Positions 4,892 through 50,093 of a stretch of DNA of 64,000 bases are shown here, one piece after another. Both the position numbers and the translations under genes were made by a program. This DNA is from a virus, in the IMG/VR virus record IMGVR_UViG_3300027969_002350, positions 26,494 through 90,493 of that record; one strand, given 5' to 3'. The notes below the pieces were generated by a model, which was not told where the DNA came from, searched no databases, and was given only the letters and a program-made list of their open reading frames with translations. Numbering within the stretch: the first letter of the stretch is position 1; each line of letters starts with the position of its first letter.

Positions 4892-4909
4892 GAACTGATT
4901 CTTGACAAA

Positions 4910-4938
4910 TTGACACAAATTGATTCCGAGTGTATAAT
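4910..4938 (+). promoter_or_regulatory. Sigma-70 promoter (TTGACA-17-TATAAT), leaderless
   Basis: -35 TTGACA at 4910-4915, 17-bp spacer, -10 TATAAT at 4933-4938, then six bases to ATG 4945. The expected start site is the A of the ATG. A second TTGACA at 4902-4907 is too far from the -10 box. The -35 begins TTGACACAAATT, a string shared by the next three promoters. Confidence 0.9.
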
Positions 4939-4944
4939 TACGTT

Positions 4945-28689: not shown

Positions 28690-29386
28690 TTTTCATTTCC
28701 TTTATGCGATTATAAAATAATTCTGCTAAGAATTGATGTGCATCATGATCGAAATGTCCAGTATAATCTGGAACATACCCTTGTTCCATAATATAACGGA
28801 TTGCATTAGTTGCATCACCGTATTTGTTTTTAAAATTTAGTAATGGTAATTTAATTCCAAATGGATTATCGACAATGCTACCACCATGGCAATGTAATTC
28901 TATAAAATAATGTTCTATATTAAATTTGTTTAAAAATGTATTTAAGAATAATAGTGTTCTATTAATCATAACTGTTTCGTATTGTGTACTATGAAATTTT
29001 CCATATAAAATTTCCATAAAGGTTATTTCTTTAGGATCACTTGTAAATTCTTTATTAACACTCCAGGGACCAAACGGTTTCATTGTATAGAAATGAGTGA
29101 ATGTTTGATCTGGTAATGGAATTTCAAATCTAGATAAATCGGTTAAGCCGAATGCAATAACTAAATTTGAAACTTCGTGTGTTTCTAAGTATTCCATCAA
29201 TACACGTTCAGAGCGTTGATTGCTTGCTCCTTCTAATGATAGATTGATACTGTTTTTAAAATTTCCTATATTCTCTAATTTTTTGACCCAACTGCGTTCA
29301 TGACAACTTAATGGATTAATATCCTCACCTAGCGGAGCAAATGTATGACTACACCCAACTCCTAGTAGTGTCTTACCTTCAAACAT
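28682..29386 (-). CDS. SGNH/GDSL-like hydrolase, 234 aa (tandem copy B)
   Basis: MFEGKTLLGVGCSHTFAPLG at the start, SLEGASNQRSERVL as block with Asn, and HFDHDAHQFLAELF at the end. It is a tandem duplicate of the 27934 gene; the middle has diverged much more than the ends, suggesting changed substrate specificity. It overlaps the radical SAM gene at 29379 by eight bases. Confidence 0.8.
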   Translation of the reverse strand: MFEGKTLLGVGCSHTFAPLGEDINPLSCHERSWVKKLENIGNFKNSINLSLEGASNQRSERVLMEYLETHEVSNLVIAFGLTDLSRFEIPLPDQTFTHFYTMKPFGPWSVNKEFTSDPKEITFMEILYGKFHSTQYETVMINRTLLFLNTFLNKFNIEHYFIELHCHGGSIVDNPFGIKLPLLNFKNKYGDATNAIRYIMEQGYVPDYTGHFDHDAHQFLAELFYNRIKEMKNV

Positions 29387-30779
29387 CTTTAAAAATATCT
29401 TTCATCTCTGGGAAGGTAGTATAAAAATTAGTACCTCGCTGTTTATCTAATAGCTCTAAGTATTCTTTCATTTCTGGCAAACGCACACTCCAGTCTTCAC
29501 TCTTAGCAAATTTAACCATACCGCGAAGACGATCTATACCGTAATCTGCATTTAACCATTGTTCTTCAGTTACTTTACCTTGATGCCATGCTGGCACGCC
29601 TTTTTGCCAATTAGCTTTCCACCACGGAATAAACTCTTCGTACTTGCGTTCAATCTCATCTTTAAACCATGCTGGCAATATCTTAACATTTAAATGTGGT
29701 GGATGATAAACAAAGTGATAGTTAATGCCGCCAGCACCAAATGGCCACATGTTAATCTTCTTAAAGCCATGTTCTAGCTTCCACTTTAAAAACTCTGGGA
29801 TATAATAAATGTTCAGTGCTTGCACGGCACAGGCAATTGATATCTCTACATTTTTTCCTGTCTCGTTATCTAACTGTCTAAATGCTTCTAAGTTTCTTTC
29901 CCACTTACTTGGATAACGAATATAATCATTACGTTCTTCTATAGCATCAACACTATAGTGATAACGAACTAGTTTAAAATGACTCCATAATTCAAATAAA
30001 TCTTCACGCCACTCGACACCATTGCTGTTATAACGTATTTCCATGTCCTTGGCATAGCCACGCTTAATACATTCTTCTAGAATAGCATAATGCTCTTCAA
30101 TGATTAAAGGCTCGCCTCCAGCAAAGTAAAGCTGTTTCATATTAGGAATCTGTTCCCATAACTGTTCCCAGAATTGAGGATTGCTCTTATGCCAATTATA
30201 ACTGGCACCGTTCTCTTGTCCTTTGTTACCCCATTGCATACTATCTTTAAGTACAGGATTAGTAACGTTAGGATACATCTTTTGCCATTCAGGAACCCAT
30301 AAACTACTATCATGCGGACTACACATCACACATGCCAGGTTACATTTAGTACCAAACCTCATGTCAATATAAGCAATATGCGGGGGGACGCTACCGTCTT
30401 CTTGGGTGTCTTCTAATAGTTTGTCTAGATCGACACGTTGGCTCCAGTATTTTGTTTCCCATTCACGTTTAGATTTATGTCCTTCACGTTCTTCCTTGTA
30501 ACACTTAGTACAGCTATCTGGTTCTTCACCTGCTAGCATTTTAAGTCTTGTATTCTTCATGTAGTCATTATTCCAACTACTTAGAAAGTCTGTGTGATTT
30601 AAATTTGCGGGTTTACCATCGGCATTTTTGAGAATACCGACTTCGCCGCCATGAATTTTGTCGTTTGTTGGGCCTACTGAACTTGCATTGGCGGTACAGC
30701 AGACTCGCATATGTCCGTTGGGTCGTGTGCTTAAATGTACCCACGGAAGGATACAAAATGTTTTACTTGGAGTTGTCAT
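29379..30779 (-). CDS. Twitch-type radical SAM protein, first gene of a leaderless late operon
   Basis: The 466-residue protein opens FCILPWVHLSTRPNGHMRVCC, with CTKCYKEEREGHKSKREWE (~90-108), C146-x3-C150-x2-C153 (CNLACVMC), AGGEPLI and the end LDKQRGTNFYTTFPEM, all the hallmarks of the family. An ATTAAATA octamer lies exactly five bases before the ATG, implying a leaderless mRNA for this six-gene operon. A 10-bp inverted repeat overlaps that promoter. Most similar in layout to the 14491 protein. Confidence 0.9.
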   Translation of the reverse strand: MTTPSKTFCILPWVHLSTRPNGHMRVCCTANASSVGPTNDKIHGGEVGILKNADGKPANLNHTDFLSSWNNDYMKNTRLKMLAGEEPDSCTKCYKEEREGHKSKREWETKYWSQRVDLDKLLEDTQEDGSVPPHIAYIDMRFGTKCNLACVMCSPHDSSLWVPEWQKMYPNVTNPVLKDSMQWGNKGQENGASYNWHKSNPQFWEQLWEQIPNMKQLYFAGGEPLIIEEHYAILEECIKRGYAKDMEIRYNSNGVEWREDLFELWSHFKLVRYHYSVDAIEERNDYIRYPSKWERNLEAFRQLDNETGKNVEISIACAVQALNIYYIPEFLKWKLEHGFKKINMWPFGAGGINYHFVYHPPHLNVKILPAWFKDEIERKYEEFIPWWKANWQKGVPAWHQGKVTEEQWLNADYGIDRLRGMVKFAKSEDWSVRLPEMKEYLELLDKQRGTNFYTTFPEMKDIFKDV

Positions 30780-31786: not shown

Positions 31787-32854
31787 TTATATTAAAGTAT
31801 AGTTACCTATCGGTAATACTTCTAGTTTTTTCACATTGCATACTTCAGTGCAACGATGAATACGATCAATTTTATTTATACCGTGTTCTTTTGATTGCCA
31901 ACTACTAACTAAGTTGTCTGTGTAAAATTCGTGTGCTAGTATTTCTTCAACAGAATATTTAGTCAGGTCGTTCCAGTCATTACTGCCATACGATTCAAAT
32001 AATCGTTGTTGTAAAATTTCTGCTCGGCCACGATCCATGTTCATAAACCCATTGTGTAAAAAACAGCAGGGCCATAGCTTACTATCAAAACCAATGAAAT
32101 ACATTTTCTTTGTTTGATTATTACATTGTATTTCATTATCTACTGAATCTTTAAATGCTTCATTAACTGAGTCGATGGTACTTTTATAATCTTTGCGCTT
32201 TATATTATCTACTTTAATTTTTTGAATTAATTGTAAACCTAGACTAGTTGCCACGCTTCTATCATGTCTGCTCATAAACTCTTTAAACTGCATCTTAACA
32301 CTTAATGCTTTTGCATCCATAATCTGATGCTCATTCCAAGGGAATATTAAATATTGCCAGCCTGCATTGCCTCCTGCGCCAATAAAAGCATTTGCATTTT
32401 CTATAATCTTAGACCATGTAGTATTTTGTCTGTATATATGATTAGTATCTTCCATGCCATCAATACTAAATTTAACCATATGTCTGTCATGCTTCTTTAG
32501 CACTTGAGCTAATTTAGTCCAGTATTTTACACTACGTAAGCTGGCATTTGTATGAATTATAATATTGTATTTGCCCACAGTACTTGCAAAATCTAAGAAA
32601 TCTAAAAATTCAGGATGCATTAAAGGATCGTCGATTGTTCCACAAAACTCTAACTCGATGACTGATTTAAATTCTGGTGCTAGTAAAATCTTTTTGAATG
32701 TTTCAAATTTAATATATTCTTTATCAGGAATAACATATTTCTTTTCATTGAACGAATTACCGTCTGTTCTAACACAGCCCAGACATAGTGCATTGCACAT
32801 GCTACTAAGTTCGAATTGTAGCTTGGTGGCCGCGGATAGATATGTATTATTCAT
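31787..32854 (-). CDS. Radical SAM/SPASM protein, 355 aa
   Basis: The catalytic cluster is C20-x3-C24-x2-C27 (CNALCLGC), a GTIDDPLMHPEF segment sits at the GGEP position, the family motif is FPWNEHQIMDAKALSVKMQ, and SPASM Cys lie near the end (CNNQ...WPCCFLH...CTEVCNV). It is related to the 26062, 31106 and 33815 proteins, with the same substrate class likely. It lies nine bases upstream of the split gene and overlaps the 32847 gene by eight bases. Confidence 0.88.
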   Translation of the reverse strand: MNNTYLSAATKLQFELSSMCNALCLGCVRTDGNSFNEKKYVIPDKEYIKFETFKKILLAPEFKSVIELEFCGTIDDPLMHPEFLDFLDFASTVGKYNIIIHTNASLRSVKYWTKLAQVLKKHDRHMVKFSIDGMEDTNHIYRQNTTWSKIIENANAFIGAGGNAGWQYLIFPWNEHQIMDAKALSVKMQFKEFMSRHDRSVATSLGLQLIQKIKVDNIKRKDYKSTIDSVNEAFKDSVDNEIQCNNQTKKMYFIGFDSKLWPCCFLHNGFMNMDRGRAEILQQRLFESYGSNDWNDLTKYSVEEILAHEFYTDNLVSSWQSKEHGINKIDRIHRCTEVCNVKKLEVLPIGNYTLI

Positions 32855-33818
32855 AATTAAGTTCTTTTGGTATTAACACATCAGCAGTACACATGCACCA
32901 ATCTTCTTTACATTTTACTGACTGTGTTAGCAGGCCACTAAAATTAAAAATACTAGTAAATGGTTTTAATTGTGCTGTTCTGCATGTTGCCATATATATA
33001 GAACCAGTATCATCTACATATATATGATCCATGCCCATATTACAGTCCCATCCTTTAAATTTATTTGTTCTATTGTTAACGGCTTCTACTTCGTCAAATC
33101 TAGAAACAACATCAAATTCGTCTTTAATAAAAGTATTACCATAATAGTTATGAATAGGTGCAGGTTTAATTGCTCCACGAATGTTCAATCCTGTATTTGC
33201 AGATAACCAACTTAATTGTTCGGTATTATATTCATAACTAATAGATAGTCCACTTTGATTGTTGTTTCTTTGAAATACCCTACTAGGTTCTAACGTTATG
33301 TTAGGCATATCTTTAAGTCTTTCAAATGCATCTACACTTTTTTCCCAGTAAGGAGAAACTGGATACATTAAAGTAACTATGCCGATATTAGTTTGTGTGC
33401 CAATGAATCTAATTTTTTCAAATATTTCTTCATCTGCACTTTCTGGGTGATAGCTAATTGTAACTTTATAAATTTTAGGGGCATATTCCCTCCACCATTC
33501 TATGCTTCTACTTCCGTTTGTATTAACATATACACACCAACCAGCTTCATTACAAAAATCAATAATTGTTTCTAAACTGGGACTAATAGTAGGTTCACCA
33601 CCATTTACAAATACATGTACGCTTCTTCCGATAACTTCTTTTTGTATGTTGGTAAGAAATTTTTTAATTATTACAGGATCTTCTTGTTTACTTTTAAAAA
33701 CATTTGTACCTGTGTGGAGGGATGGCGGACAATAGCTACAATGATACGTGCAAAGAGTATTCAATGTCCAATCAATAATAAATCGATTTGTCTCATTGTA
33801 AATTTTAATAGTTTTCAT
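32847..33818 (-). CDS. Radical SAM protein with Cys-rich tail, 323 aa
   Basis: The cluster motif is C23-x3-C27-x2-C30 (CTYHCSYCPPSLHTG), followed by FVNGGEPTISPSL. The C-terminal Cys (WDCNMGM; MATCRTAQL; KCKEDWCMCTAD) may bind a second cluster. It resembles the 17160 protein more than the SPASM group. It is embedded between two SPASM-type radical SAM genes with 8- and 4-base overlaps. Confidence 0.87.
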   Translation of the reverse strand: MKTIKIYNETNRFIIDWTLNTLCTYHCSYCPPSLHTGTNVFKSKQEDPVIIKKFLTNIQKEVIGRSVHVFVNGGEPTISPSLETIIDFCNEAGWCVYVNTNGSRSIEWWREYAPKIYKVTISYHPESADEEIFEKIRFIGTQTNIGIVTLMYPVSPYWEKSVDAFERLKDMPNITLEPSRVFQRNNNQSGLSISYEYNTEQLSWLSANTGLNIRGAIKPAPIHNYYGNTFIKDEFDVVSRFDEVEAVNNRTNKFKGWDCNMGMDHIYVDDTGSIYMATCRTAQLKPFTSIFNFSGLLTQSVKCKEDWCMCTADVLIPKELNYE

Positions 33819-34987
33819 TTAAATTGTTCTTTAAAGGCATCGTATTTAGTACCACATGTCTTGGCACAAACTGCTAACTTACCTTCTGCACAACTGGGCT
33901 TAGTCCACGATCCTGGAACAACTTCTTGGATGAATTTGCCGTTGATAACATCATTTAAATCGTGTACACGCAGATCTAAACTGTCAAGGCCTGCACTATC
34001 AATAGCATCCCAAATTTGGCCGCCGCGTTCTTTCCAATACCAAACATACATCTGCCCAGCTGTCCAACAACATGGCTGTAGATATCCTTCTGCTGTAATG
34101 TAAATGCTTTTTTCTTCAGCAACTTTACATTTAACTTCAACAGAGTCCCAGTACTTTTCCATGTCTTTTTTCTTATCAAGATCTAAATTAAATTTCTGGC
34201 TACCTATTTTACCTTCAAGTTCTGCTACAGTTGAAATAAAATCAATTTTAACTTCACCTTTGTCTTTACTTAAACTTTCTAATTGCTTTAATGCGGCATT
34301 TTGATATTCGGGATTCTTAGGCATACTTAACAACGTAGTTTCGTTGCCTTTACGATTTCCTGCTTGATGTTCTGCTTTAACTGCACCTCTAGTATTGCTA
34401 AAGAACCTATTGGACTTTTTGACATTAAACTTTTCAAAGCCCATGCTAGTTGCTAATGCTCTAGCTTCTTCAACTTGATGTTCGTTATGTCCAAATACAA
34501 TATAGTCCCAACGAGCTCTACCGCCGGCGGCTATAAAGGCTTCTGCATTACGCATAATGTTTTTCCATACCGTGCCTTGTCGATACAAGTGATTAGTATC
34601 TTCTAAGCCGTCTACACTGAATACAACATAATGACTTTTACCCATAGCGGCAGGCAACTTACTCCACCATTCAGGAGTTTTAGCACTGGCATTTGTGTGA
34701 AAGCTCAATTGCATTTTAGCATTGTGGCTGCGAATATATTCAAATATCTCTAATGTATCTCTGGCACTAATTGGGTCACCATAGTTGCCGCACATATACA
34801 ATCGTTTTAATTGTTTGATGAATTTAGGTTTTAGTATTGTTTTAACATCATCTAAGCTAAGTTCAGCGTCATGTAATTGTGGATTAACTTCGCCGCCATT
34901 GATGTTTCTAGCACATTGAGGACAACTAGCATTACAGCGTTCTGTAACTTCTAAGTGAACTGTGGCGATTTCATTAGCTTTATACAT
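33815..34987 (-). CDS. Radical SAM/SPASM protein, 390 aa
   Basis: This is the fullest member of the window's SPASM group. C18-x3-C22-x2-C25 (CNASCPQC) is followed by GNYGDPISARDTLE, the motif FGHNEHQVEEARALATSMG, an inserted Lys-rich segment (~200-260) absent from the others, and the SPASM Cys (KCKV...LQPCCWTA...CAKTCGT). It starts one base within the stop of the methyltransferase-like gene upstream (TAATG-type junction). Confidence 0.88.
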   Translation of the reverse strand: MYKANEIATVHLEVTERCNASCPQCARNINGGEVNPQLHDAELSLDDVKTILKPKFIKQLKRLYMCGNYGDPISARDTLEIFEYIRSHNAKMQLSFHTNASAKTPEWWSKLPAAMGKSHYVVFSVDGLEDTNHLYRQGTVWKNIMRNAEAFIAAGGRARWDYIVFGHNEHQVEEARALATSMGFEKFNVKKSNRFFSNTRGAVKAEHQAGNRKGNETTLLSMPKNPEYQNAALKQLESLSKDKGEVKIDFISTVAELEGKIGSQKFNLDLDKKKDMEKYWDSVEVKCKVAEEKSIYITAEGYLQPCCWTAGQMYVWYWKERGGQIWDAIDSAGLDSLDLRVHDLNDVINGKFIQEVVPGSWTKPSCAEGKLAVCAKTCGTKYDAFKEQFK

Positions 34988-35838
34988 TATTTGATACCAT
35001 AGATCATAAATCTTTTATATTTGGGAAAAGCTGTTTCTCCCCTAAAATGAACTATATTTAATGGGTATTTTTTTAAAAAAACTCCAAAATTTTCACAATA
35101 GTTTATATGGTCGTATTCGGGACTACTATTTGATTGTATTAAAACTGTAGTACCTGGTTTTAACTTTTCAAACCAAACATTACTCATATGCTCTGCACTT
35201 GTGTTAATAATTAAATCAGGATTTAAAATACTATTATTAAAAATAATATTGTTATTTGCATCAAACGCTTCTTCCATAGTTCTGTTATCAACTTGTGCAT
35301 TTGAATTTATAATTTTAACTAATGGATTAATACTACTGTCTGGATCTATACTGTATAGATTGGAATATGTAATATCTTTTAAAAATAAACTATGATGTGT
35401 AAGCCAGCCGCCAATTAACAATACATTATCAAAATTTAATTTAAATTTATTTAATGTTTCTGCCATCCAAAGTTTACTTAGGATTTGACTTTTACTAAAG
35501 ACCGTTGCAATTATATCATTATTTAACAATGTAATATTGTGCAATTTTTTCAACACTACATCATTGGGCCATATAGAAGTCATAATATAGATTAATTCAC
35601 TGGTAACTAGTTTATCTTCAGCGCATATGTTAGTATAAAAATTTAAACGTTCGTTTCTGTTTAAGTTTGAATACAATTCATAATCGCTAGCAATCAAATC
35701 TTTTAACGGCCATGTTTTTAATTTAGGCTCAGAATATTTCATATTAATAATATGACGTATAAAGTTTTTCTTTTCTGGTTCATTAATAAAGTTAAAAAAC
35801 TTTTCAATTCCAAAAAGCCAAGAGAGTTGATCATCCAT
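34987..35838 (-). CDS. Class I methyltransferase-like (Rossmann) protein, 283 aa
   Basis: After a ~130-residue helical N-terminus comes NFDNVLLIGGWLTHHSLFL, a strand plus glycine loop as in SAM-binding motif I. YSIDPDSS with an acidic strand end (motif II) and DLIINTSAEHMSNVWFEKL-KPGTTVLIQSN (motifs IV-VI) follow. The motif-I loop has only two Gly, so SAM binding is likely but not certain. It sits between a glycosyltransferase-like gene and a SPASM radical SAM gene, suggesting methylation of the same product. Confidence 0.7.
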   Translation of the reverse strand: MDDQLSWLFGIEKFFNFINEPEKKNFIRHIINMKYSEPKLKTWPLKDLIASDYELYSNLNRNERLNFYTNICAEDKLVTSELIYIMTSIWPNDVVLKKLHNITLLNNDIIATVFSKSQILSKLWMAETLNKFKLNFDNVLLIGGWLTHHSLFLKDITYSNLYSIDPDSSINPLVKIINSNAQVDNRTMEEAFDANNNIIFNNSILNPDLIINTSAEHMSNVWFEKLKPGTTVLIQSNSSPEYDHINYCENFGVFLKKYPLNIVHFRGETAFPKYKRFMIYGIK

Positions 35839-36511
35839 TTAAACCCGTCCATTCTGTAAATTTACCACGTAGCCATTTAAAATTATTTACTAAAGTAAAA
35901 TCTGCATTTTCTTCTTTAGTGTATGCAACACCTTGTCTTGCACCTTGTATAGCAAAGTATCCATACTGCGTTTCTATACCTGCTTCGCACCACATAGTTA
36001 ACCGTTCTTGACTTTCTTGATCATTATTATTTTTATTAATACCAGCACTAAGTTTAACTGCTTCACGAAATGCTGTTCTCCACGTACTGTATGGATTATA
36101 ATTAAACCTATGCTCTGTGGCTAGTATGTTTAACTTAATATAACTATCAGCAAGTGTAGTAGTCATATCAGGTCGGTCTAAGCGTTCTGCACTAAAACAA
36201 TCCTTACTAAATAATTTAATACCACCGTGTCCATATATTAAACCATTAATGGGATTTTTACTGCGAAATACCGCGACACTCTTTGGCGTTAGTTCTATTT
36301 GTTTATCAAATGTAAAACTATCTACTATCCACGAGTCAGCATCTACTACATAGAATCTATCGCCTTCACAGAGACCGGCTATGTGTTTATGACTTTCAAA
36401 TATATTCCCTACTGCGGCAACTGCTTGAGCATTGTCAGTTTTAGATTGCAGTCGTTCCCAATTATCATTGAGATTGCTTTCATCAGAATATAAAAAATAA
36501 ACAGGTAACAT
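35831..36511 (-). CDS. Glycosyltransferase-like protein (copy 1 of 4), 226 aa
   Basis: Start at ATG 36511 by alignment with the paralogues (MLPVYFLYSDESN against MLDVFFLSYNEPY) and because it leaves one base to the preceding stop. A DxD-type metal motif (RFYVVDADSW) and the family string NGLIYGHGGIKLF are clear, as is WRTAFREAVKL. This fits a GT-A-like fold with a nucleotide-sugar donor. Relatives are at 36513, 37501 and 50095. An eight-base overlap joins it to the methyltransferase-like gene. Confidence 0.75.
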   Translation of the reverse strand: MLPVYFLYSDESNLNDNWERLQSKTDNAQAVAAVGNIFESHKHIAGLCEGDRFYVVDADSWIVDSFTFDKQIELTPKSVAVFRSKNPINGLIYGHGGIKLFSKDCFSAERLDRPDMTTTLADSYIKLNILATEHRFNYNPYSTWRTAFREAVKLSAGINKNNNDQESQERLTMWCEAGIETQYGYFAIQGARQGVAYTKEENADFTLVNNFKWLRGKFTEWTGLNG

Positions 36512-36512
36512 T

Positions 36513-37523
36513 TTAATATTTAGGTAACTCGAAACCAAATAATGGTAATGCGCTTTGATTTAATAATGCAGGCCATCCTAGTCCCTTGCCAGGACTAATA
36601 TGTACATGTTTGAACCATATGCTTTGATTTGAATCAAGTTCTACTAATGGTAATCCTAATTGTGCTTTTAAATCCGTCATTAATTTATGACTGCGTTCAT
36701 TAATATACTCACCTTGTTTTAATTGTAATATTTGATTATCCCATAACTTATTAAACCAGTCATAGTCTGAAATTACAGTATGATCAAAGTAGTCCAGATA
36801 TAGCATGTGGGCCGCTAACCGAGCACCATATATAACCCAATCTCCGTTTTCTACATCGCGTCCCACTGTCATCCAAATTAACCAACGTGCAAAGTTAGCT
36901 GGGTACATTTTATGTTTAAAATCCTTAGGAGATACTTTATGTCCTTGATCGAGGCCCATTTTAACACCTTCACGAAAGCCCGCTCTAAATGCTTGTTTAG
37001 GAGTTGCATTATTATAAACAACGCCATAAGTATTGTTCATTTGTTTGTACTGATCTGCATCCCAGCAAAAATCAACATTATGAGTACTATCGCCTTTTGC
37101 TGCCGCTTCGTGGCTTTTCATATTTTTAACATGTTCAGAATACCATAATTTAATTCCGCCATTACCATAGACTAAGCCATTGACGATATTACGACTACTC
37201 CAACTTAGTGTAGCAAATTTGATATCAGAAGTAATCTCGATACTTTTTTTCCATATTTCACTATCTACAAAACAATCAGCATCTACTGTAAAAAATCTAT
37301 CAGTGCCTGCGGTTTCTGCAGCCGCTTTGTGTGCCGCATCAAAGCCTTTGACTCCGTGTACCCTGTACACTAATTCCGGATTAGGATGATTGTTTTTTAA
37401 ATGATTATAATTATCATCTGCATTAGGCTCATCAAAACTTAAAAACACAACAGGTGGTGTTTTTAATTGTATTATTTGATTTTTTTTATTTAATCCGCTA
37501 TCAAAAGAATTTATTAAACTCAT
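36513..37523 (-). CDS. Glycosyltransferase-like protein (copy 2 of 4), 336 aa
   Basis: Contains VVFLSFDEPNADDNY, VHGVKGFDAAHKAAAE, the DxD motif FFTVDADCF, NGLVYGNGGIKLW and FRAGFREGVKM. It is longer than copies 1 and 3 because of an ~80-residue C-terminal extension ending LPLFGFELPKY. Its closest relative is the 50095 protein, sharing the VHGVKGFDAAHKAAA string exactly. It overlaps the gene upstream by 23 bases. Probable nucleotide-sugar glycosyltransferase; acceptor unknown. Confidence 0.78.
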   Translation of the reverse strand: MSLINSFDSGLNKKNQIIQLKTPPVVFLSFDEPNADDNYNHLKNNHPNPELVYRVHGVKGFDAAHKAAAETAGTDRFFTVDADCFVDSEIWKKSIEITSDIKFATLSWSSRNIVNGLVYGNGGIKLWYSEHVKNMKSHEAAAKGDSTHNVDFCWDADQYKQMNNTYGVVYNNATPKQAFRAGFREGVKMGLDQGHKVSPKDFKHKMYPANFARWLIWMTVGRDVENGDWVIYGARLAAHMLYLDYFDHTVISDYDWFNKLWDNQILQLKQGEYINERSHKLMTDLKAQLGLPLVELDSNQSIWFKHVHISPGKGLGWPALLNQSALPLFGFELPKY

Positions 37524-38238
37524 TCCTCATCCATTCATAATCGTTAATTAACTGTAAAGAAGACTTATCTTCTTTACAGTTTTCTCCATATTTTTTTCCT
37601 TGTATTGCACCTGCAATACAATATTTTCCAAATTTCTTATTTTTTCCAACTGTTGTCCAAATATTTAATCTATGCTCTGCTTCTTTTTTTAGCTTAGAAA
37701 TTTCATCTTGATGCAATATATCAACAATTTCTTTATTTGTTATATTAGTTGCTAGTTTAGCACACTCCCTAAATGCACTTCTAAATGTGTTAAACTCATC
37801 ATAATTAAATGCAGTTATGTTACTAACTTTGTCAATTACTTTAGTTGTTAATCCAAAGCCGGTTGTAAAATCAATAACATCTTTATCATCACATAATAGA
37901 GGTTGCTTAGGTAATATTTTAACACCTCCGTGGCCATAAATCAAGTCATTTATTGGATTTATGCTGTACCAAATATAAATGCTGTTGCTTTCAGGTTGGC
38001 CCCAGAGATCTAAATATTTAGATGGAGTAAAGTTAAAATTAAAATTGTCGACTATTATTGCGTCGCTGTCGACAACATAAAAATTATCAGTGAAGCTTCT
38101 ACGAGCACATTCTTGATGAGCGGCGGCAAAACCTTTTACACCATTAACTCGTCTAGCATTTGGTACTAGCTCTTTGAGTCTGGCATAATTTTCATCTGCA
38201 TACGGCTCATTGTAACTAAGGAAAAAAACATCTAGCAT
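37501..38238 (-). CDS. Glycosyltransferase-like protein (copy 3 of 4), 245 aa
   Basis: DVFFLSYNEPYADENY, RVNGVKGFAAAHQECAR, a DxD variant NFYVVDSDAIIV, NDLIYGHGGVKILP and FRSAFRECAKL identify it as a paralogue of the 35831, 36513 and 50095 proteins. It is first in a nine-gene operon. An ATTAAATA octamer followed by CTAGTATA precedes the ATG, so the leader would be only a few bases. Donor and acceptor unknown. Confidence 0.76.
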   Translation of the reverse strand: MLDVFFLSYNEPYADENYARLKELVPNARRVNGVKGFAAAHQECARRSFTDNFYVVDSDAIIVDNFNFNFTPSKYLDLWGQPESNSIYIWYSINPINDLIYGHGGVKILPKQPLLCDDKDVIDFTTGFGLTTKVIDKVSNITAFNYDEFNTFRSAFRECAKLATNITNKEIVDILHQDEISKLKKEAEHRLNIWTTVGKNKKFGKYCIAGAIQGKKYGENCKEDKSSLQLINDYEWMRNEFNKFF

Positions 38239-38262: not shown

Positions 38263-39735
38263 TCACGTTACTACCGGTACGTTGTACTTTAAGTAGAAGT
38301 CTCGAGCATCTTGAATATTATTAACCATTGGATGTCCTTTGATGTTCAAGCTAGTATTAAGTAACATTGGACAGCCAGTAAGGCTATGCCAATCTTCGAG
38401 TAGTTTTCTAAAGCCAGGACTATCATTCTTACTAACAGTTTGTACACGACTAGTGCCATCTTTGTGTATAATAGCAGGAAACTCTTCTGGACGAGTACAC
38501 TTAGCAACAAATTGCATAAACGGGCTCGCTGTTATGTTTGTAGGCATATCAAAATAATTGTGGACATACTCTTCTAAGATTGCCGGTGCGAATGGTCTGA
38601 ATTGTTGTCTGCGTTTGATTGCGTTAACGGTGTCTTTGATTTCTGATCCACGGGGGTCTGCCAGTAGACTGCGGTGGCCAAGTGCTCTAGGACCAAACTC
38701 TGCACGTCCGGAGGCAACGCCCACAATTTTATCTTTTGTAAGTACGCTAATAGTTTCATCAACTGGATATTCCTTTCCCATGTTTGTGCCAAGATACGCA
38801 CCCGGCCAATTAACTTGCTCGCCAAAGAAAGCGGCAACTGCACCAACACTACTTCCGGCATCTCCTGGATTTGGCATGATCCATACCTTGTCCCAGTCCC
38901 CTGTAATCTCACTGTTGGCCACACAATTAAGAGCACAGCCGCCCATTAATACAATGTTCTTGCTAGGTAAGTTTGCTCTTGCCCAACGACTAATACCTTG
39001 TAATATTTCAGTATACACTTGTTGAGTTGCGGCAGCAATATCAAATGTATCTTGTTCTTTTAATAAATCCAAACGCCAATCAGGACAGCCACGATGTAAG
39101 TTACGTTTGAATTTAACTTCTGGACCGTTGACTACTGCGAAGAAATCTTCATATATAGCTGCCTTGTGTTTGTTGGGATCACCATAAGCAGCCATACCCA
39201 TGAGAATATATTCTTCTTCGTTGGGCTTTAATCCTATGCGCTGTGTCATAGCACTGAACCAAAGTCCGAGACTATCTGGATACCCTTGTGTATACACTTT
39301 CTTTAGTTCATTGCCTGCGCCTTGCCATACAGTAAGAGTTTCAAATTCGCCTATGCTGTCAATAACAACAACTGTGGCATCATTTAGTCCACTTGTATAA
39401 TAACCAGCGGCAGCATGGCTTTTATGATGTTCACCTATAACTAAAGGTTGATTCAAATTGTATTTTGCTAGATAAGATTTAACATCATTCTCTTTAGTTC
39501 TATCACCCTGGCCAGCAGTATATTGTCTAGCTGTTTTTAAGTCAGGATTTTCATACCAAACAATTAAGTCCGGCCGACCATATTGTTCAGCATCTTCGAT
39601 AATGCCGGCGCAAAGATCTCCGTCATTTTTAATTCCAGAGTATCGTTCGCTATGTGCCGCAAATTGTAATTGTTTATCGTGCCAAACTGATACGGCTGCA
39701 TCGTGACTATTAGCACTAATTCCCCAAATGTTCAT
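38263..39735 (-). CDS. NodU/CmcH-family carbamoyltransferase
   Basis: The 490-residue protein opens NIWGISANSHDAAVSVWHD (metal- and nucleotide-binding N-domain), contains EHHKSHAAAGYYTSG and VIDSIGEFETL, and has the conserved C-terminal block GRAEFGPRALGHRSLLADPR, then FRPFAPAILEEY. This family transfers carbamoyl from carbamoyl phosphate through a carbamoyl-adenylate to sugar or antibiotic hydroxyls. It is the last gene of an 18-gene operon, four bases overlapping the aldolase-like gene, and probably carbamoylates a sugar made by its neighbours. Confidence 0.93.
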   Translation of the reverse strand: MNIWGISANSHDAAVSVWHDKQLQFAAHSERYSGIKNDGDLCAGIIEDAEQYGRPDLIVWYENPDLKTARQYTAGQGDRTKENDVKSYLAKYNLNQPLVIGEHHKSHAAAGYYTSGLNDATVVVIDSIGEFETLTVWQGAGNELKKVYTQGYPDSLGLWFSAMTQRIGLKPNEEEYILMGMAAYGDPNKHKAAIYEDFFAVVNGPEVKFKRNLHRGCPDWRLDLLKEQDTFDIAAATQQVYTEILQGISRWARANLPSKNIVLMGGCALNCVANSEITGDWDKVWIMPNPGDAGSSVGAVAAFFGEQVNWPGAYLGTNMGKEYPVDETISVLTKDKIVGVASGRAEFGPRALGHRSLLADPRGSEIKDTVNAIKRRQQFRPFAPAILEEYVHNYFDMPTNITASPFMQFVAKCTRPEEFPAIIHKDGTSRVQTVSKNDSPGFRKLLEDWHSLTGCPMLLNTSLNIKGHPMVNNIQDARDFYLKYNVPVVT

Positions 39736-40799
39736 CGGTATATAAACGGATCTCTTTTGCGTAGTTCTTCTAAGCGTTTTTTAAGTTTAATTTGAAATTG
39801 AACTTCAGGATGTTCGTAATCGAATGTTTTATAATGATCTAATAAATCAGTAATTTTTTTTGTCAAGGCCAATTTAAACTTATCATAATCGATGCTTGAA
39901 ATAATAGCTCTATATTCATTGCTATTAAAACCATAATGTCCACTAACACTTACTGCAATATTCTTGTCAGTAATGCCTTCAGGGACCCATCGTTGCCAAA
40001 AATTTAAACTATAAATAAAATCTTCAAATCTTAGCCATAAATCTGTAGGAGCAAACTCTTTTAATAAATCTGTTTGTACTTTGCCTAACTGTGGAGCAAT
40101 ATTTAAACTATCTATACCTGCTGTTATTCTATTTTGTATGTCTTCTTCTGTAAAATAGTCCGCATTATGTTCTTTAAATAAAAACCCTGCCGCACGTATT
40201 TGTTCTCCAATTTCTTGATTACGGTTGATATCAAATGTACCTGCTTGATTATCCTTAGTTAAACTGCCTGTTTGCGTAACAAAGAATTTAATATTTTTCT
40301 TATATGGATTTAAAAATCCTAGCTGTACATCTATTCTAGCAAGACTACTGTTAATATCTATACCTGTGTTGTCTTCACTGCCAAACTCTAACATGATGTC
40401 TGGATTCAAACTTAGCGCATATTCAATTAATCTCTTTGCGTAGTATAGTTGGTTATCGTCAATACGACTAACGTCAATATGAATTAAATCAAAACCATTA
40501 GCAATGTCGGCGGCTATAGTTTTCATACAACGATCTATGGCATCCTCTAATGGTAGTCCTCGATCTAAATCACTGAAGTATGGTCCGCAATGATCTCTGC
40601 ATAATAGTAAATTTAGATTTTTATATTGTTTTATCTGTTTAACTAATTCAGTAGTAGTACAAACATAACCAGTAACATAGTCTACTTGGTTTCTACTTGC
40701 AATAATCATTAATGGATAGTTGTTTTCTTTTGTGTATGTTGCAAGAATTTCAATAATCTCTTTACTCATTGGGCCAAAGCCCAATTTAAACTGTTTCAT
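39732..40799 (-). CDS. GatZ/KbaZ-like class II aldolase-family protein
   Basis: The protein has 355 residues from ATG 40799; earlier in-frame sequence lies in the neighbouring gene. The N-terminal half matches the tagatose-bisphosphate aldolase subunit family: IIASRNQVDYVTGYVCTT corresponds to the SNQVNQ-GGYTGM block, and LLCRDHCGPYFSD to GGDHLGPN. HIDVSR and EFGSEDNTG follow as barrel strands. Family members make or support ketose-phosphate aldolases. Position between shikimate-dehydrogenase-like and carbamoyltransferase genes suggests formation of an unusual sugar or polyol backbone (inference). Confidence 0.75.
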   Translation of the reverse strand: MKQFKLGFGPMSKEIIEILATYTKENNYPLMIIASRNQVDYVTGYVCTTTELVKQIKQYKNLNLLLCRDHCGPYFSDLDRGLPLEDAIDRCMKTIAADIANGFDLIHIDVSRIDDNQLYYAKRLIEYALSLNPDIMLEFGSEDNTGIDINSSLARIDVQLGFLNPYKKNIKFFVTQTGSLTKDNQAGTFDINRNQEIGEQIRAAGFLFKEHNADYFTEEDIQNRITAGIDSLNIAPQLGKVQTDLLKEFAPTDLWLRFEDFIYSLNFWQRWVPEGITDKNIAVSVSGHYGFNSNEYRAIISSIDYDKFKLALTKKITDLLDHYKTFDYEHPEVQFQIKLKKRLEELRKRDPFIYR

Positions 40800-41526
40800 A
40801 TTGTTTGCTTTCAATTTCGTTGTATACTTGTTCGTTGGACTTAATTCCTGTGTAGATTTCAAATTGCTTTAAAAACTGAGCCTTATAAAACTCACGTCCA
40901 GATACATATTTAACTCTAGCAATCTTACATTGTTCTTGCAATTCGTTGTCTTTAATTGCCAAGTCAATAACTATCCTAGCATCTGGAGGTATTTGTCCAA
41001 GCCTATAAGGACTGTCAAAAGTGCTAGTGCCTAGTGCAGTACAATTAATCACTACATCACTGTAAGAATAACGATTATTCCATGTTCCGGCATTTTTGGT
41101 ACAGACATTTAAGTTACCGTAATGTTGTTCTTCTAAATATTTAACAAACATACTACCAATGGCTCCGCCACCTAAAATAGTGATTTTGTCATTTTGTCGA
41201 ATTTCTTTACAAACATATTCAACACCTGCAAGATCAGCATTGTATCCGTGTGTTATACCTTTGTCTATTCTTATAGTGTTACAACTGTTATACATATCAA
41301 CATACGGATGCTGATTATTTAACAATGGCATTACTACTCGTTTGAATGGCATGCTTATGCTAATACCGCTAACGCCGGCTTCGATTGCATCTTTAATACT
41401 TTGTTCAACATTATCACAGGCTAATGCAGTATAGGTTGCATTTATGTTATAGTGCTTGAAGAATTCTGTATAAAAGTATTCACCAGTCTTTCCTGGATAC
41501 TGACTTAGGCTTATAAATTTTTTCAT
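40786..41526 (-). CDS. Shikimate dehydrogenase (AroE)-like oxidoreductase
   Basis: The 246-residue protein shows the AroE plan: an N-terminal substrate domain with GISISMPFKR (the catalytic-Lys loop), NTIRIDKGITHGYNADLAG (the Asn/Asp pair), a Rossmann nucleotide loop ITILGGGAIGSMFV and NCTALG late. Because it sits in an accessory operon away from other aromatic-pathway genes, it probably acts on a shikimate-like or aminoshikimate-like cyclitol or sugar ketone rather than in aromatic amino-acid synthesis (inference). It overlaps the aldolase gene by 14 bases. Confidence 0.85.
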   Translation of the reverse strand: MKKFISLSQYPGKTGEYFYTEFFKHYNINATYTALACDNVEQSIKDAIEAGVSGISISMPFKRVVMPLLNNQHPYVDMYNSCNTIRIDKGITHGYNADLAGVEYVCKEIRQNDKITILGGGAIGSMFVKYLEEQHYGNLNVCTKNAGTWNNRYSYSDVVINCTALGTSTFDSPYRLGQIPPDARIVIDLAIKDNELQEQCKIARVKYVSGREFYKAQFLKQFEIYTGIKSNEQVYNEIESKQYETV

Positions 41527-41861
41527 CGTTTGTATGCTCTTATCTGTTTTATTTTATTATCTTGATCAAACTCTATAACGTCAACTACCTGTGCTACTAT
41601 TGAATTATTAATTATAACTTTTATTTCTGCTATAACTGTGTCTAATCCTACAGCAATTTTATCGACATCAATTCTTATTGCTTCAACCGAGTTAAAGAAG
41701 TTTTGATTAAATTTTAAAATATTATCTTTACCTACTATTTGCACTTCCCAGTCTGTTAATACGATGCTATCACTGAACAATACTTCTAATGATGCGGCAT
41801 CTTTTTTACAGAAGCTTTGAAAGTACATTAATGCTATTTGGCTCTGTGTTGGATTACTCAT
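41523..41861 (-). CDS. NTF2/SnoaL-like small protein, 112 aa
   Basis: The pattern MYFQSFCKKDAASLEVLFSD, VLTDWEVQIVGKDNI, then antiparallel strands (IAEIKVIINNSIVAQVVDVI) and the ending IKQIRAYKR is typical of SnoaL-like members of the NTF2 superfamily. These are cone-shaped small enzymes or ligand-binding proteins, often isomerases or cyclases in natural-product pathways. It overlaps neighbours by four and eight bases. Likely an enzyme of the same sugar-like pathway, reaction unknown. Confidence 0.8.
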   Translation of the reverse strand: MSNPTQSQIALMYFQSFCKKDAASLEVLFSDSIVLTDWEVQIVGKDNILKFNQNFFNSVEAIRIDVDKIAVGLDTVIAEIKVIINNSIVAQVVDVIEFDQDNKIKQIRAYKR

Positions 41862-43386
41862 TATCTAGCTCCGCAAATAGTTTAATGCCTAAGTACCATA
41901 AGAATATATCAAATGGCGCAGTATGCAATGGACTCATGTTCCAAAAAATAATTGGTATCAGTTGTTGTACTTTTTTGTAGTCTAAATTGTTAGTCAAAAT
42001 ATACTTCTTTAAACGTTCCTGATATACTGTAATATGTTCTACACTAGGGATACTCAGCGTTACACTATCATTATCAATTTCAATGTTAAAGTTATGATTC
42101 TTAATGTTAGCGTAGTTAATAATTAACCCACCTGCCATCTTGGCCAAGTCATAGTATATATCACCATATTCAACTATGCCTGCAAACTCGTGTCGCCAAT
42201 CTATAATTTTAAACTCTCCGCTGTCACTGATTACGATATTATCAAACTGCAAATCACCGTGTAAGAATCCCGGGCGTGTAACAGTAGATAGATATTCCCA
42301 ATCTATTTTATTGAGATAATAACTATAATCTTTGACTGTAACACCATCAATGTTAGTAACATTTTTTATGTTAGGATACTTTTCCAAAAACTTACTAATA
42401 CGGGCTAGACTTTTTGTTTTATAAAACTCAATACTTGCGGCATGTATGTCAGCATCGCAGTCTTTCCATACATTTGTTTCTAGCCAATTTAATAATTCAC
42501 CGAATGCCACCGGGTTATTAAACTCGTAGAGCGTCTTACCAGGAAAGAAATCATAGGCCATGTAGTTACCGCTGTGCGTACAGTTACCGGGGAATACGTA
42601 AGGATTAGCCAGTACTTTATCATATTTCTTTTTTGCTATGCTATTATCTAGCCACCATTTGACAACTCTATTGTTACATATATAAGTTACTTCGTCTTTT
42701 TTTGTAAAGTCGAACTTTTGACTTTTACTTAATTCAGTTTGATAAATTGTAGGACTACCAAAGTCTAACCACGAGTTAAGACTGGCTGTGTCACTGCCTA
42801 ATTTAATAATACCAATAAATTCATTGCTGTTACTTGATTCTAGTTTAGCAAAGAAATCTGTGTAATCATTAATATACATTAAACCTGTAAATGCTGTCCA
42901 GAATTTAGGAGCACGTTGTTTAAATCTAATATCTGTAATACGGAAACTATTACCAGTATTAAACATTGTATATAGATGTGTGTCTTGTTCAGGAACTTGC
43001 TTGACAAAATAACAATCATTATTACTGACTTTGCTTACCACTTGTTCGTCAAAGTATGTATCGCAAGGTACATACCAAAAAGGTGTATTGATTAAATCTC
43101 GACATTGCAATAACGTATATCCAGTACCAGACTTTGCACTAGTCCAATCATCAATGTCTATGAATTCAATGTTTCTGTCGCTGTATGCTACACTACAAAA
43201 GTCTATAATTTGTTCTTTGAAATAACCTACAGGTATAATAAATTTTGTATCTTTGGGAAAACTATCAATAATATGTGCCAACACCGGCTTATCTTTATAA
43301 GGTAATAATGCTTTATTAAGATTTTTGGTATAATTGCCCATTCTACTACCCGTGCCAGCAGTAGGTATAATAACAGTATTACTCAT
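41854..43386 (-). CDS. Bifunctional sugar nucleotidyltransferase / APH-type kinase
   Basis: The protein has 510 residues from ATG 43386. The N-terminal ~230 residues form a nucleotidyltransferase: IIPTAGTGSRMGNYTKNLNK holds the GxGxR nucleotide loop and the following Lys. The C-terminal half is an aminoglycoside/choline-kinase-like domain with LHGDLQFDNIV (catalytic Asp and Asn) and KIIDWRHEF (metal Asp). The fusion suggests phosphorylation then NDP activation of a sugar, choline or similar group, as in LPS and capsule pathways. It overlaps the cupin gene by eight bases. Confidence 0.88.
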   Translation of the reverse strand: MSNTVIIPTAGTGSRMGNYTKNLNKALLPYKDKPVLAHIIDSFPKDTKFIIPVGYFKEQIIDFCSVAYSDRNIEFIDIDDWTSAKSGTGYTLLQCRDLINTPFWYVPCDTYFDEQVVSKVSNNDCYFVKQVPEQDTHLYTMFNTGNSFRITDIRFKQRAPKFWTAFTGLMYINDYTDFFAKLESSNSNEFIGIIKLGSDTASLNSWLDFGSPTIYQTELSKSQKFDFTKKDEVTYICNNRVVKWWLDNSIAKKKYDKVLANPYVFPGNCTHSGNYMAYDFFPGKTLYEFNNPVAFGELLNWLETNVWKDCDADIHAASIEFYKTKSLARISKFLEKYPNIKNVTNIDGVTVKDYSYYLNKIDWEYLSTVTRPGFLHGDLQFDNIVISDSGEFKIIDWRHEFAGIVEYGDIYYDLAKMAGGLIINYANIKNHNFNIEIDNDSVTLSIPSVEHITVYQERLKKYILTNNLDYKKVQQLIPIIFWNMSPLHTAPFDIFLWYLGIKLFAELDNE

Positions 43387-43819
43387 GTTCGTAACTAACT
43401 CTTCCATGTGTCCTACCACCGTCATCTTGTAAACGAATTACATCATCCAGTTCGGTGGTACTGGTTTCCATAAACTCTAAATCTGTCGTGGCCATAACAC
43501 GATGAACATAACCTGGAGTTACATTAAATACAACACCTTCTTTAAGATCGATAACTTCAAATGTAGATTCGTATTCTTCAACTTGTTTACTAGTCATGCC
43601 ATGTTCTAAAAACTTTGCAATATCTAATGGTTCCTTACTACGATGTAATACACCCGTGCCGCTTAAAACATAGTTAGTTTCTATTTTGTATTCGTGTACT
43701 TGTAAACTAGTCCTATTACCTGCTTTAAATAAGATTCGTTTGCTGGCGTAAGGAGTAGCAGAGCCATCAGCAATCCACAATTCATAACCCCAGTGTTTAG
43801 TTACTTTTTTTATGCTCAT
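43379..43819 (-). CDS. Cupin, phosphomannose-isomerase-like, 146 aa
   Basis: KKVTKHWGYELWIADG is the opening typical of the type II mannose-6-phosphate isomerase C-terminal cupin. SLQVHEYKIETNYVLSG has the metal-binding His and Glu, FNVTPGYVHRVMA the later His, and DDVIRLQDDGGR the end motif. A stand-alone cupin of this kind isomerises or epimerises sugar phosphates. It overlaps the nucleotidyltransferase/kinase gene downstream, supporting a joint role in making an activated sugar. Confidence 0.85.
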   Translation of the reverse strand: MSIKKVTKHWGYELWIADGSATPYASKRILFKAGNRTSLQVHEYKIETNYVLSGTGVLHRSKEPLDIAKFLEHGMTSKQVEEYESTFEVIDLKEGVVFNVTPGYVHRVMATTDLEFMETSTTELDDVIRLQDDGGRTHGRVSYEHE

Positions 43820-47870: not shown

Positions 47871-48696
47871 CCAATTCTCCTTCTAAGCCGGATTTTATTT
47901 TTCGATTTAAATAGTCCTGACCCCTATAAATTTTAGGATCAACTGTTAACGGACTTATTTCAATGTTAAACATCTTTGCATAAAAATATAACGCATGTTC
48001 GGTGCCGATTAAATTCTTATTAAACGTTCGTTGGCCTATGACCGGCAGCCATCTATAAAACTCACATATCCTATTAAATGTAACGCTATCAGCAAACCAA
48101 AATACATCACCCAATCTATGAAAGGGAAACTGTACATCATCCTTAGCAGTATGGCAGCTATAAAATGTATTACTATTTGGATAAACTAAGTCTTTGGAAA
48201 CAAAATGTTTAATTTGATAATCTTCAAAAAACATATCAGTTCTCATCCTAATACATACATCATATCTAAAATTGTTGTCATATTCATATTTCTTTTTTAG
48301 ATGGCTGGCATGCATTATACTATAAAATTGGCCTGCGCACCATTCCAGCTTAGTAATACCATGTTCATTTATATGTGGGAAATTTCTATCACGTGTTTCT
48401 TGAATTTTATTTTTATTTGATGTTTCGTCTTCAAATAAAAATGAAATAGGATTCAACGAAGAAACTATACTACGCTTTTCATCTTCCGATATTGTTTCGC
48501 CTGGGACCGTCATATAATCCCATCCTTCGTGCATTAATAATCTATGCGGCGGCGTATTATAATCCCACATGTGGAAAAATATATCAACTGAATCAACTTT
48601 ATAATTAGCTTTTATTGTTTCAATAAATTTGTGCCAAGTTAAATGACATTTTTCCCATGTTCGTGGCTGGCCGCTTAAACAAATAGCAACTCTCAT
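47851..48696 (-). CDS. Glycosyltransferase-like protein of the SGQ family, 281 aa
   Basis: MRVAICLSGQPRTWEKCHL, DIFFHMWDYNTPP, FYSIMHASHLKKKYE and DVCIRMRTDMFFED give the complete family outline and match the 46953 protein block by block. DVFWFADSVTF is a later conserved-looking segment. It overlaps the radical SAM gene upstream by four bases (ATGA), indicating coupled translation of the radical SAM protein and this transferase. Confidence 0.77.
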   Translation of the reverse strand: MRVAICLSGQPRTWEKCHLTWHKFIETIKANYKVDSVDIFFHMWDYNTPPHRLLMHEGWDYMTVPGETISEDEKRSIVSSLNPISFLFEDETSNKNKIQETRDRNFPHINEHGITKLEWCAGQFYSIMHASHLKKKYEYDNNFRYDVCIRMRTDMFFEDYQIKHFVSKDLVYPNSNTFYSCHTAKDDVQFPFHRLGDVFWFADSVTFNRICEFYRWLPVIGQRTFNKNLIGTEHALYFYAKMFNIEISPLTVDPKIYRGQDYLNRKIKSGLEGELGGHELI

Positions 48697-50093
48697 TTAG
48701 AATTTTTCCATTTAGTGTAGTATGGCTCAAATTCTGGAAACGTTTCTAAAAAGTTAGTGCCGCGACGTTTATCATGTTCATCAACGAATGCAACTAAATC
48801 TTTTTGATATACTGTTACTTCCTCGGGATCTTTTTGATTCATAGTTAATTCATATATGCGTTTAAATTTTTCTGCCTCCCATTTAAAGAATCCTTGATTA
48901 GCACTTCCGTACCATTCACCATTTTCTAAATTACGATACATCATTGTTACTTGATCAAAAATATACTCTTTAGCCCATGACGATGGCATAACATGAAAGA
49001 TACTTTGATGTGCCGGGTGTCTTAGAAACGGTGCATCTAAAATTAACGGGGCATGAACTGCATCGTGTCCTCCAAATTCGTTTTTAATAGCTAATACATC
49101 TTGTAAGAACAACGAATAAGTGGGAATACTAAGCACATTGTACGTACTCATGATAGTAATAGTACACTCGGGTATTTCTTTTAACACTCTGCGAATATTA
49201 CTTAACCATAAATCATAATTTAAGCCGTCACGTATATATTCTGCTGCCTTACCATGAGCATCACAGCTTGTAAAGATTTTAAACTTTTTAACTTTCTTTT
49301 CTTCACAGATAATTTTAACCTTTTCAAGGAACTTGTCAAATAACTGTGATGGTACACACAAGTTACTATTAATACTCAAATGTATATCTGGGTTAGGATT
49401 CTCGATCACATAATCAAGAACTTTAAAGGTATCCTTACTTAGTAACGGCTCGCCGCCGGTTACACGAAAATGCTGTAACTCTTTATAAACTGTGGGCCAC
49501 CATTTCCAAAATGCGTCCACGTAAGGGTTATATTGATTATGCGGGATTGGCATTTGGTCAATTTGTTTTAGTCCTGCAATATCATTAAAGTTGCCATGAG
49601 TAGGATAAGGACCGTGTTGTTTAATTTCTTCCATCCATAGGCTACTCACTTGTGGACTACAATAGCTACATTTAAAATTACAGACGTTACTAAAACTAAC
49701 TTCTAAATAACTTGGAGCAACATCTTGATCCCAGGGCATCTTACTTACTTCTTCAAAATGAGGCTTTGCCCATACGTCATAACTTTTGTAAATTCTATCG
49801 CTAAGAGCATCGGGGGCGCTGTCTTCTACTTTCCAACAATAGTCGCATTCTTTTGGACGTACACCTTCTAACATTAATTTACGTTGTTCTTTTTTGAACT
49901 TAGTATTATGTAACGCACTAGGATTGGCAGCTAATTCATCTAAAGGAATTTTGTGTGTAGTAGGATGATGACAACTATGGTTGTGTCCTGTCTGTAAATG
50001 CAATGTTACTTGCTTCCATTTAGCAATACAAAAACTTGGACTAACATCGTTAATCTTTTTTTGAAATGCAATGATATCTTTATTATGTTCCAT
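48693..50093 (-). CDS. Twitch-type radical SAM protein, 466 aa
   Basis: FCIAKWKQVTLHLQTGHNHSC at the N-terminus, CDYCWKVEDSA at ~83-93, C138-x3-C142-x2-C145 (CNFKCSYC), VTGGEPLL and the end motif DKRRGTNFLETFPEF. It is the nearest relative of the 2209 protein, with which it shares the KWxQVxLxL start and an ALSDRI/GLSDRI stretch. It is the only radical SAM gene in the 18-gene operon, placed between glycosyltransferase-like genes of two families. Confidence 0.9.
   Translation of the reverse strand: MEHNKDIIAFQKKINDVSPSFCIAKWKQVTLHLQTGHNHSCHHPTTHKIPLDELAANPSALHNTKFKKEQRKLMLEGVRPKECDYCWKVEDSAPDALSDRIYKSYDVWAKPHFEEVSKMPWDQDVAPSYLEVSFSNVCNFKCSYCSPQVSSLWMEEIKQHGPYPTHGNFNDIAGLKQIDQMPIPHNQYNPYVDAFWKWWPTVYKELQHFRVTGGEPLLSKDTFKVLDYVIENPNPDIHLSINSNLCVPSQLFDKFLEKVKIICEEKKVKKFKIFTSCDAHGKAAEYIRDGLNYDLWLSNIRRVLKEIPECTITIMSTYNVLSIPTYSLFLQDVLAIKNEFGGHDAVHAPLILDAPFLRHPAHQSIFHVMPSSWAKEYIFDQVTMMYRNLENGEWYGSANQGFFKWEAEKFKRIYELTMNQKDPEEVTVYQKDLVAFVDEHDKRRGTNFLETFPEFEPYYTKWKNSK

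Follow-up and report, generated by a model that had tools for sequence, protein, structure and literature searches.

Six overlapping genes in a virus genome pose the question of what they make together; namely, whether they form a pathway to an activated sugar and, if so, whether its product is an ordinary sugar, a sugar alcohol or a carbocycle. The genes lie within the window, the 64,000-nucleotide stretch analysed here, which is part of a virus record of 90,493 bases. A first-pass annotation had proposed a module for a carbamoylated, NDP-activated unusual sugar, with a hint of a carbasugar or cyclitol. The active sites of the kinase, nucleotidyltransferase, metal-dependent aldolase-type enzyme and reductase are intact, in agreement with an NDP-activated unusual sugar, and we conclude that the cassette probably turns a ketohexose phosphate, fructose 6-phosphate for instance, into an NDP-activated rare sugar or sugar alcohol.

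Gene order and enzyme families

Six minus-strand open reading frames, all starting with ATG and free of internal stops, fill positions 38263–43819. From 5′ to 3′ they encode a cupin resembling sugar or sugar-phosphate isomerases (43379..43819), a bifunctional protein that joins a sugar-phosphate nucleotidyltransferase to an APH-type kinase (41854..43386), a small NTF2/SnoaL-like protein (41523..41861), an AroE-superfamily protein that is probably a ketone reductase (40786..41526), a KbaZ/GatZ-like enzyme with the class II aldolase fold, a candidate C4 epimerase or aldolase (39732..40799), and a NodU/Nol-type carbamoyltransferase, CarbT (38263..39735). Successive genes overlap by 8, 8, 4, 14 and 4 bases. 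The reading frames, their overlaps and Pfam, profile and motif evidence bear out the succession of families named in the first-pass annotation. The starts of homologues correct the KbaZ-like start to the ATG at 40799 (355 amino acids), compared with the listed 376-residue frame from 40862, and make 43386 the most likely start of the fusion protein (510 amino acids), although its frame can be read from 43425. We think it likely that the six genes form a translationally coupled biosynthetic cassette, a judgement made jointly with the full pathway proposed below.

Directly 3′ of CarbT and on the same strand is a putative glycosyltransferase gene (37501..38238) that has a VDSD (DxD) motif and no Pfam match and is conserved 3′ of CarbT in relatives. 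Two putative glycosyltransferase paralogues with DxD motifs follow, at 36513..37523 and 35831..36538.

The cupin scores slightly below the Pfam cut-offs (MannoseP_isomer and Cupin_2): the window protein reaches 21.4 bits against a MannoseP_isomer cut-off of 23.6, and a DPANN orthologue exceeds it at 33.7. Its metal-ligand set (Q40/H42/E47/H106) is invariant among 17 aligned sequences, and the best solved relative in profile searches is D-lyxose ketol-isomerase (2y0o); a cupin fold is by itself no proof of isomerase function. Both halves of the fusion protein fall slightly below their Pfam cut-offs (NTP_transf_3 and APH), but profile searches and invariant motifs back these assignments. Across 20 sequences, G24 and G26 of a GxGSR-type signature, K46, D122 and D221 are invariant in the nucleotidyl half, as are HGDxxxxN and D409 in the kinase half, so that, judging by sequence, both halves should be active. 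The nucleotidyl domain is nearest in profile searches to sugar-1-phosphate (RmlA), LicC and heptose-1-phosphate nucleotidyltransferases. All the active-site motifs that could be examined are retained across the cassette enzymes.

The window also contains about twelve radical-SAM genes. A cluster for catabolism or salvage, such as one that disposes of 5-deoxyribose, would account for the trio of kinase, isomerase and aldolase and could draw on those radical-SAM genes. However, the known 5-deoxyribose salvage pathway uses a FucA-like aldolase and an MtnA-like isomerase (PMC6079011), which are different families from the GatZ-like aldolase and cupin isomerase found here, and we rejected a radical-SAM-linked pathway of this kind on these grounds. 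The fused nucleotidyltransferase and the neighbouring carbamoyl- and glycosyltransferase genes point instead to glycan synthesis, and salvage in general is very improbable.

Conservation in phages and cells

Searching with the single KbaZ-like protein gave 9 viral loci and revealed the same gene order in at least six contigs, as sought for the six-gene set; scans with the alignment of the protein gave 80 listed loci out of 376 viral relatives and 80 out of 273 cellular ones. The arrangement recurs in dozens of IMG/VR contigs. Co-occurrence was counted in the 68 viral loci that had 3 kb or more of upstream sequence; at least six contigs enter twice, each with two locus ids, and the anchoring of the viral searches on KbaZ biases the counts. 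The two genes whose loss from homologous modules had been raised as an objection are both well represented: the KbaZ-like gene, as the search anchor, is kept, and AroE-like genes occur in 55 of the 68 viral loci and in 8 cellular cassettes. The cupin gene lies beside the KbaZ-like gene in 67 of the 68 viral loci, which together with the order repeated across contigs establishes that the cassette is not a chance assembly.

The neighbourhoods fall into six types. The first, the group of the window, reads cupin–fusion–NTF2–AroE–KbaZ–CarbT, and the second, found in several larger contigs, cupin–fusion–AroE–HAD–KbaZ–CarbT. The third consists of cupin–fusion–HAD–KbaZ without AroE or CarbT. The fourth is cellular, with the order AroE–HAD–fusion–KbaZ–cupin in Woesearchaeota, Pacearchaeota, Yonathbacteria, Buchananbacteria and Omnitrophota, and cupin–AroE–fusion–KbaZ in Pelagibacteraceae. 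An SDR replaces AroE in the fifth, also cellular (L016, L024 and L026), and in the sixth, from Firmicutes, the KbaZ-like gene adjoins PTS genes and the cassette is absent. The core thus comprises the KbaZ-like protein, the fusion, the cupin and usually the AroE-like protein, and is present in Woesearchaeota, CPR bacteria, Omnitrophota and Pelagibacter. GC-rich loci of Streptomyces and Nonomuraea, for which simple reading-frame calling is unsuited, were left out of this comparison.

The NTF2-like protein (Pfam SnoaL_2 above cut-off, 37 bits) is encoded in the slot that a KdsC-like HAD phosphatase gene occupies in relatives. NTF2 occurs in 29 of the 68 viral loci and HAD, counting short HAD proteins only, in 30, and none has both. 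No match to the KdsC-like phosphatase was detected anywhere in the 90-kb virus record. Because HAD–NTP fusions exist, iteration led the HAD profile to drift onto the nucleotidyltransferase.

CarbT contains both Pfam domains (Carbam_trans_N and Carbam_trans_C), far above cut-off, and the motifs HDA, HHKSH (HxxxH) and EFGPRALG. It matches phrog_1601, a family found in 134 phage records, at 350 bits and over its full length, and so belongs to the Nol-like carbamoyltransferases of cyanophages and pelagiphages; it differs from the annotated phage records in its identity (at most 46%) and in its coupling to a KbaZ/AroE cassette. CarbT follows the KbaZ-like gene in only part of the phages, being present in 44 of the 68 viral loci, and is not adjacent in cellular cassettes. 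The carbamoylated product anticipated by the first-pass annotation therefore fits the phage group of the window, but carbamoylation lies outside the cassette core, and the residue that CarbT modifies may be a different one within the glycan.

In cells, the cassette is sparse, with 5 of 327 sampled genomes in one phylum and 4 of 297 in the Pelagibacter family, a distribution that we infer to be the usual one for surface-glycan genes. Plasmid matches covered either the nucleotidyl half or the kinase half of the fusion only, and the carriers found included no named organism whose glycan structure is known. Literature searches did not retrieve the gene set, either as phage auxiliary metabolism with a shikimate dehydrogenase or as a combination in sugar loci. 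The NDP-sugar cassette is real and conserved, and apparently undescribed.

The KbaZ-like and AroE-like enzymes

The KbaZ-like protein scores above both Pfam cut-offs (GatZ_KbaZ-like and F_bP_aldolase). Its confidently predicted structure (pLDDT 92.4) retrieves GatZ (2fiq, E = 2.6e-15) and 3txv as top Foldseek hits, both with a probability of 1.00, followed by class II aldolases that include the sulfofructose-phosphate aldolase SqiA. Residues D87, H88, E171 and H257 of GatZ, the proposed Zn ligands and catalytic Asp, correspond to D69, H70, E142 and H211; D69, H70 and H211 are invariant in 36 sequences, and the position of E142 is Asp in most cellular members. The protein shares the fold and the DH...E...H set with GatZ/KbaZ (PF08013), the fructose 6-phosphate C4 epimerases or partner subunits of tagatose-bisphosphate aldolase, but has only about 19% identity to GatZ over the profile alignment, and the cassette lacks a GatY partner and has a biosynthetic rather than a catabolic context. 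GatZ E44 and K279 are replaced by I33 and N233, and the NCBIfam GatZ/KbaZ equivalog gives 32 bits against a cut-off of 568.8. These two differences mark the protein as one of a sister family, not GatZ/KbaZ proper, and the missing residues allow that its reaction differs from that of GatZ. Neither this protein nor the AroE-like protein matches a PHROG family.

GatZ and KbaZ, long termed chaperone subunits, convert fructose 6-phosphate into tagatose 6-phosphate (PMC11907403), and FbaA likewise epimerizes fructose 6-phosphate at C4 (PMC5434028). By analogy, the KbaZ-like enzyme could act either as an epimerase or as an aldolase. Aldol formation of a sugar backbone, as first suggested, is thus one option, next to which the activity of GatZ/KbaZ places C4 epimerization.

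The AroE-like protein scores above the Pfam Shikimate_dh_N cut-off and has a confident predicted structure (pLDDT 94.3). HI0607, a shikimate dehydrogenase-like (SDH-L) protein, is its best match by profile (1.9e-58) and by structure (6.7e-23), and 5-ketofructose reductase (7cok) is also among the sequence-profile or fold matches. The best NCBIfam match is PRK12550 (86 bits, cut-off 306); by sequence, the protein is related to this curated SDH-L family but is not a member. Lys65, Asp102, Asn86 and Gln244 of Escherichia coli AroE correspond to K62, D98, N83 and Q217, which are invariant in 25 cassette sequences. The alignments show the catalytic residues to be present in both the AroE-like and the aldolase-like enzyme; their possible loss had been named as an objection to the module. 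The catalytic Lys and Asp are also common to HI0607 and 5-ketofructose reductase, from which the window protein is set apart by 24% identity to HI0607, a shorter NAD(P)-binding loop and its place in a glycan cassette.

Ser14, Ser16 and Tyr215 of E. coli AroE, which we take to be the anchors of shikimate (the roles of the other active-site residues are likewise adopted from AroE structures), are K13, G15 and I191 in the window protein. None of the 25 aligned cassette sequences retains Ser16 or Tyr215, and Ser14 is replaced in 24. Three incomplete cellular assemblies (G001, G003 and G004) contain no clear AroE other than that of the cassette, and chorismate synthase was not found in them (positive control, 14 of 14). 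Three other genomes (G002, G005 and G006) have a second, housekeeping AroE, within 3 kb of chorismate synthase in G002 and G005. In a tree with long branches, in which the exact position of the phage AroE-like clade is unsure, these additional copies fall with AroE and YdiB of E. coli. In view of the lost anchors and of the genomes in which chorismate synthase was not found, we rejected a role in the shikimate or aromatic pathway.

In the three cellular loci of the fifth type, the SDR lies between KbaZ and the cupin, and no AroE was found anywhere in these genomes (assemblies incomplete). Together with the lost anchors and the missing chorismate synthase, this exchange indicates that the AroE slot is that of a ketone reductase whose substrate is not shikimate. 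We considered whether an Fe-ADH in L032 might be a third type of reductase in this position and set it aside, as it may belong to a phosphonate-type pathway; in L017, a phosphonate-type locus with PEP mutase-like, decarboxylase-like and Fe-ADH-like reading frames adjoins the cassette.

Relatives of both enzymes lie beside sugar-uptake genes. A KbaZ-like relative in Listeria adjoins fructose-type PTS EIIB and EIIC genes, in a record that is labelled as phage and carries host DNA; a Salmonella SDH-L gene adjoins fructose-type PTS EIIBC; and sdhL of E. coli ST648 lies upstream of the L-sorbose sor operon (PMC12817954). The 5-ketofructose reductase 7cok belongs to the fold family of the AroE-like protein. 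Ketohexoses or their phosphates are therefore the likeliest substrates of the two enzymes.

These observations do not support the carbasugar or cyclitol at which the first-pass annotation had hinted from the pairing of AroE with KbaZ. In that reading, the KbaZ-like enzyme would use an intramolecular aldol reaction to close a carbocycle, whose ring ketone would be reduced by the AroE-like enzyme. Cyclohexane ketones are the classic substrates of AroE-fold enzymes, CDP-inositol synthases are among the distant relatives of the nucleotidyl domain and a few cellular loci carry inositol-monophosphatase-family genes. Nevertheless, the enzyme falls on the HI0607 side without the shikimate serines or tyrosine, the relatives are linked to fructose- and sorbose-type PTS genes, and a cyclase resembling DHQ synthase or inositol-1-phosphate synthase was found in none of 24 cassette-bearing records, which include the virus of the window and eight cellular genomes and may be incomplete. 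We regard an NDP-activated cyclitol or carbasugar as improbable.

A proposed route to an activated sugar

The substrate, the order of steps, the product and its use on a surface glycan of phage or host, as we infer them, would be as follows. The KbaZ-like metal enzyme would open and re-close, or form, the C3–C4 bond of a ketose phosphate, the cupin would interconvert ketose and aldose, and the AroE-like enzyme would reduce a ketone with NAD(P)H. In relatives that carry HAD, this protein would remove a phosphate. The APH domain would then phosphorylate the product and the fused nucleotidyltransferase would convert it into NDP-X; CarbT would decorate either X itself or a different residue in the glycan that contains it, and sugar transfer would fall to the three downstream DxD proteins. 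The common logic of isomerase, kinase, phosphatase (in cassette relatives) and nucleotidyltransferase is that of NDP activation of heptoses and sugar 1-phosphates (HddC and RmlA), from which the cassette differs in the fusion of an APH-type kinase to the nucleotidyltransferase and in including both an AroE-like reductase and an enzyme with the class II aldolase fold.

Reduction would not be obligatory, as the core occurs without any AroE in a phage group (L158-L174), in Marine virus AG-345-E15 and in some cellular loci (L010, L029 and L031). Such cores, in the phage group and these cellular loci, usually have a KdsC-like phosphatase beside the KbaZ-like protein, and this pairing, like the closeness of the nucleotidyl domain to RmlA and heptose-1-phosphate nucleotidyltransferases, is what an ordinary NDP-aldohexose would predict. 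In this sub-case of the proposed route, fructose 6-phosphate C4 epimerization would be followed by isomerization by the cupin and then by phosphatase, anomeric kinase and nucleotidyltransferase, with the AroE-like enzyme as a later tailoring step. However, the kinase is of the APH type and not GHMP, the window's group lacks the phosphatase and most cassettes have a built-in AroE or SDR, and we hold an ordinary aldohexose to be possible without favouring it.

A second sub-case, in which the ketose from the KbaZ-like enzyme is reduced by AroE or SDR, phosphorylated and activated in the manner of CDP-ribitol or CDP-glycerol, gains from the exchange of AroE for SDR, as expected of a simple ketone reductase, and from the IspD-like and LicC-like matches that the nucleotidyl domain gives. 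Some groups, however, lack a reductase altogether, the cupin would be left without an obvious role, and an NDP-alditol seems rather unlikely.

The route to an NDP-activated rare sugar or sugar alcohol, if correct, would be a new way of reaching activated sugars, in which an aldolase-type enzyme and an AroE-family reductase start from ketose phosphates. It would also assign a function to two orphan branches: SDH-L within the AroE superfamily, and those GatZ-like proteins that do not belong to tagatose catabolism. We tentatively suggest that large phages, CPR, DPANN and Pelagibacter may have in common a hitherto undescribed monosaccharide or sugar alcohol, activated with NDP, whose synthesis combines AroE-type reduction with C4 epimerization or aldol chemistry on a ketose, and which possibly moves as a glycan unit between host and phage. 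A cassette common to phages and to CPR and DPANN surface-glycan loci would connect, in a testable way, the surface chemistry that phages encode with that encoded by hosts.

Alternating genes in the cassette

Among 68 viral loci with at least 3 kb upstream, in which only short HAD proteins were counted and at least six contigs are counted twice, the NTF2-like gene occurs in 29 (for example, L001 and L098) and a gene for a KdsC-like HAD phosphatase in 30 (for example, L136 and L158), and no cassette carries both. The two mutually exclusive proteins are unrelated. Two DPANN archaea encode a KdsC-like HAD that is fused with a second nucleotidyltransferase for sugar phosphates (L016:6346-7515 and L024:5835-7025), a domain fusion that supports a joint pathway.

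Cellular loci and the origin of records

In a Clostridia locus (L085:8458-9909), the relative of KbaZ-like adjoins a sulfoquinovose isomerase-related protein (158 bits, below the cut-off). Near the KbaZ–cupin pair of a Planctomycetota contig, PEP mutase-like, decarboxylase-like and Fe-ADH-like reading frames (L017:6848-10424) resemble a phosphonate pathway. Three phage-collection records (L011, L012 and L187; OR846727, OR848100 and AFYI01000003) contain bacterial chromosome, namely a Listeria PTS operon and the Salmonella atp-glmS-pst region, so their phage labels are not trustworthy.

Genes around the cassette

The window encodes about twelve radical-SAM proteins within its 64 kb (Pfam PF04055, three below the cut-off; 2209-5010, 14491-19751, 24809-27207, 29379-30779, 32847-34987 and 48693-50093), several with SPASM matches, an unusually high density for a phage. 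Three DxD-motif paralogues that follow the cassette (window 36513-38238 and 35831-36538) have no Pfam match and are also found behind it in relatives; they probably represent an undescribed glycosyltransferase family.
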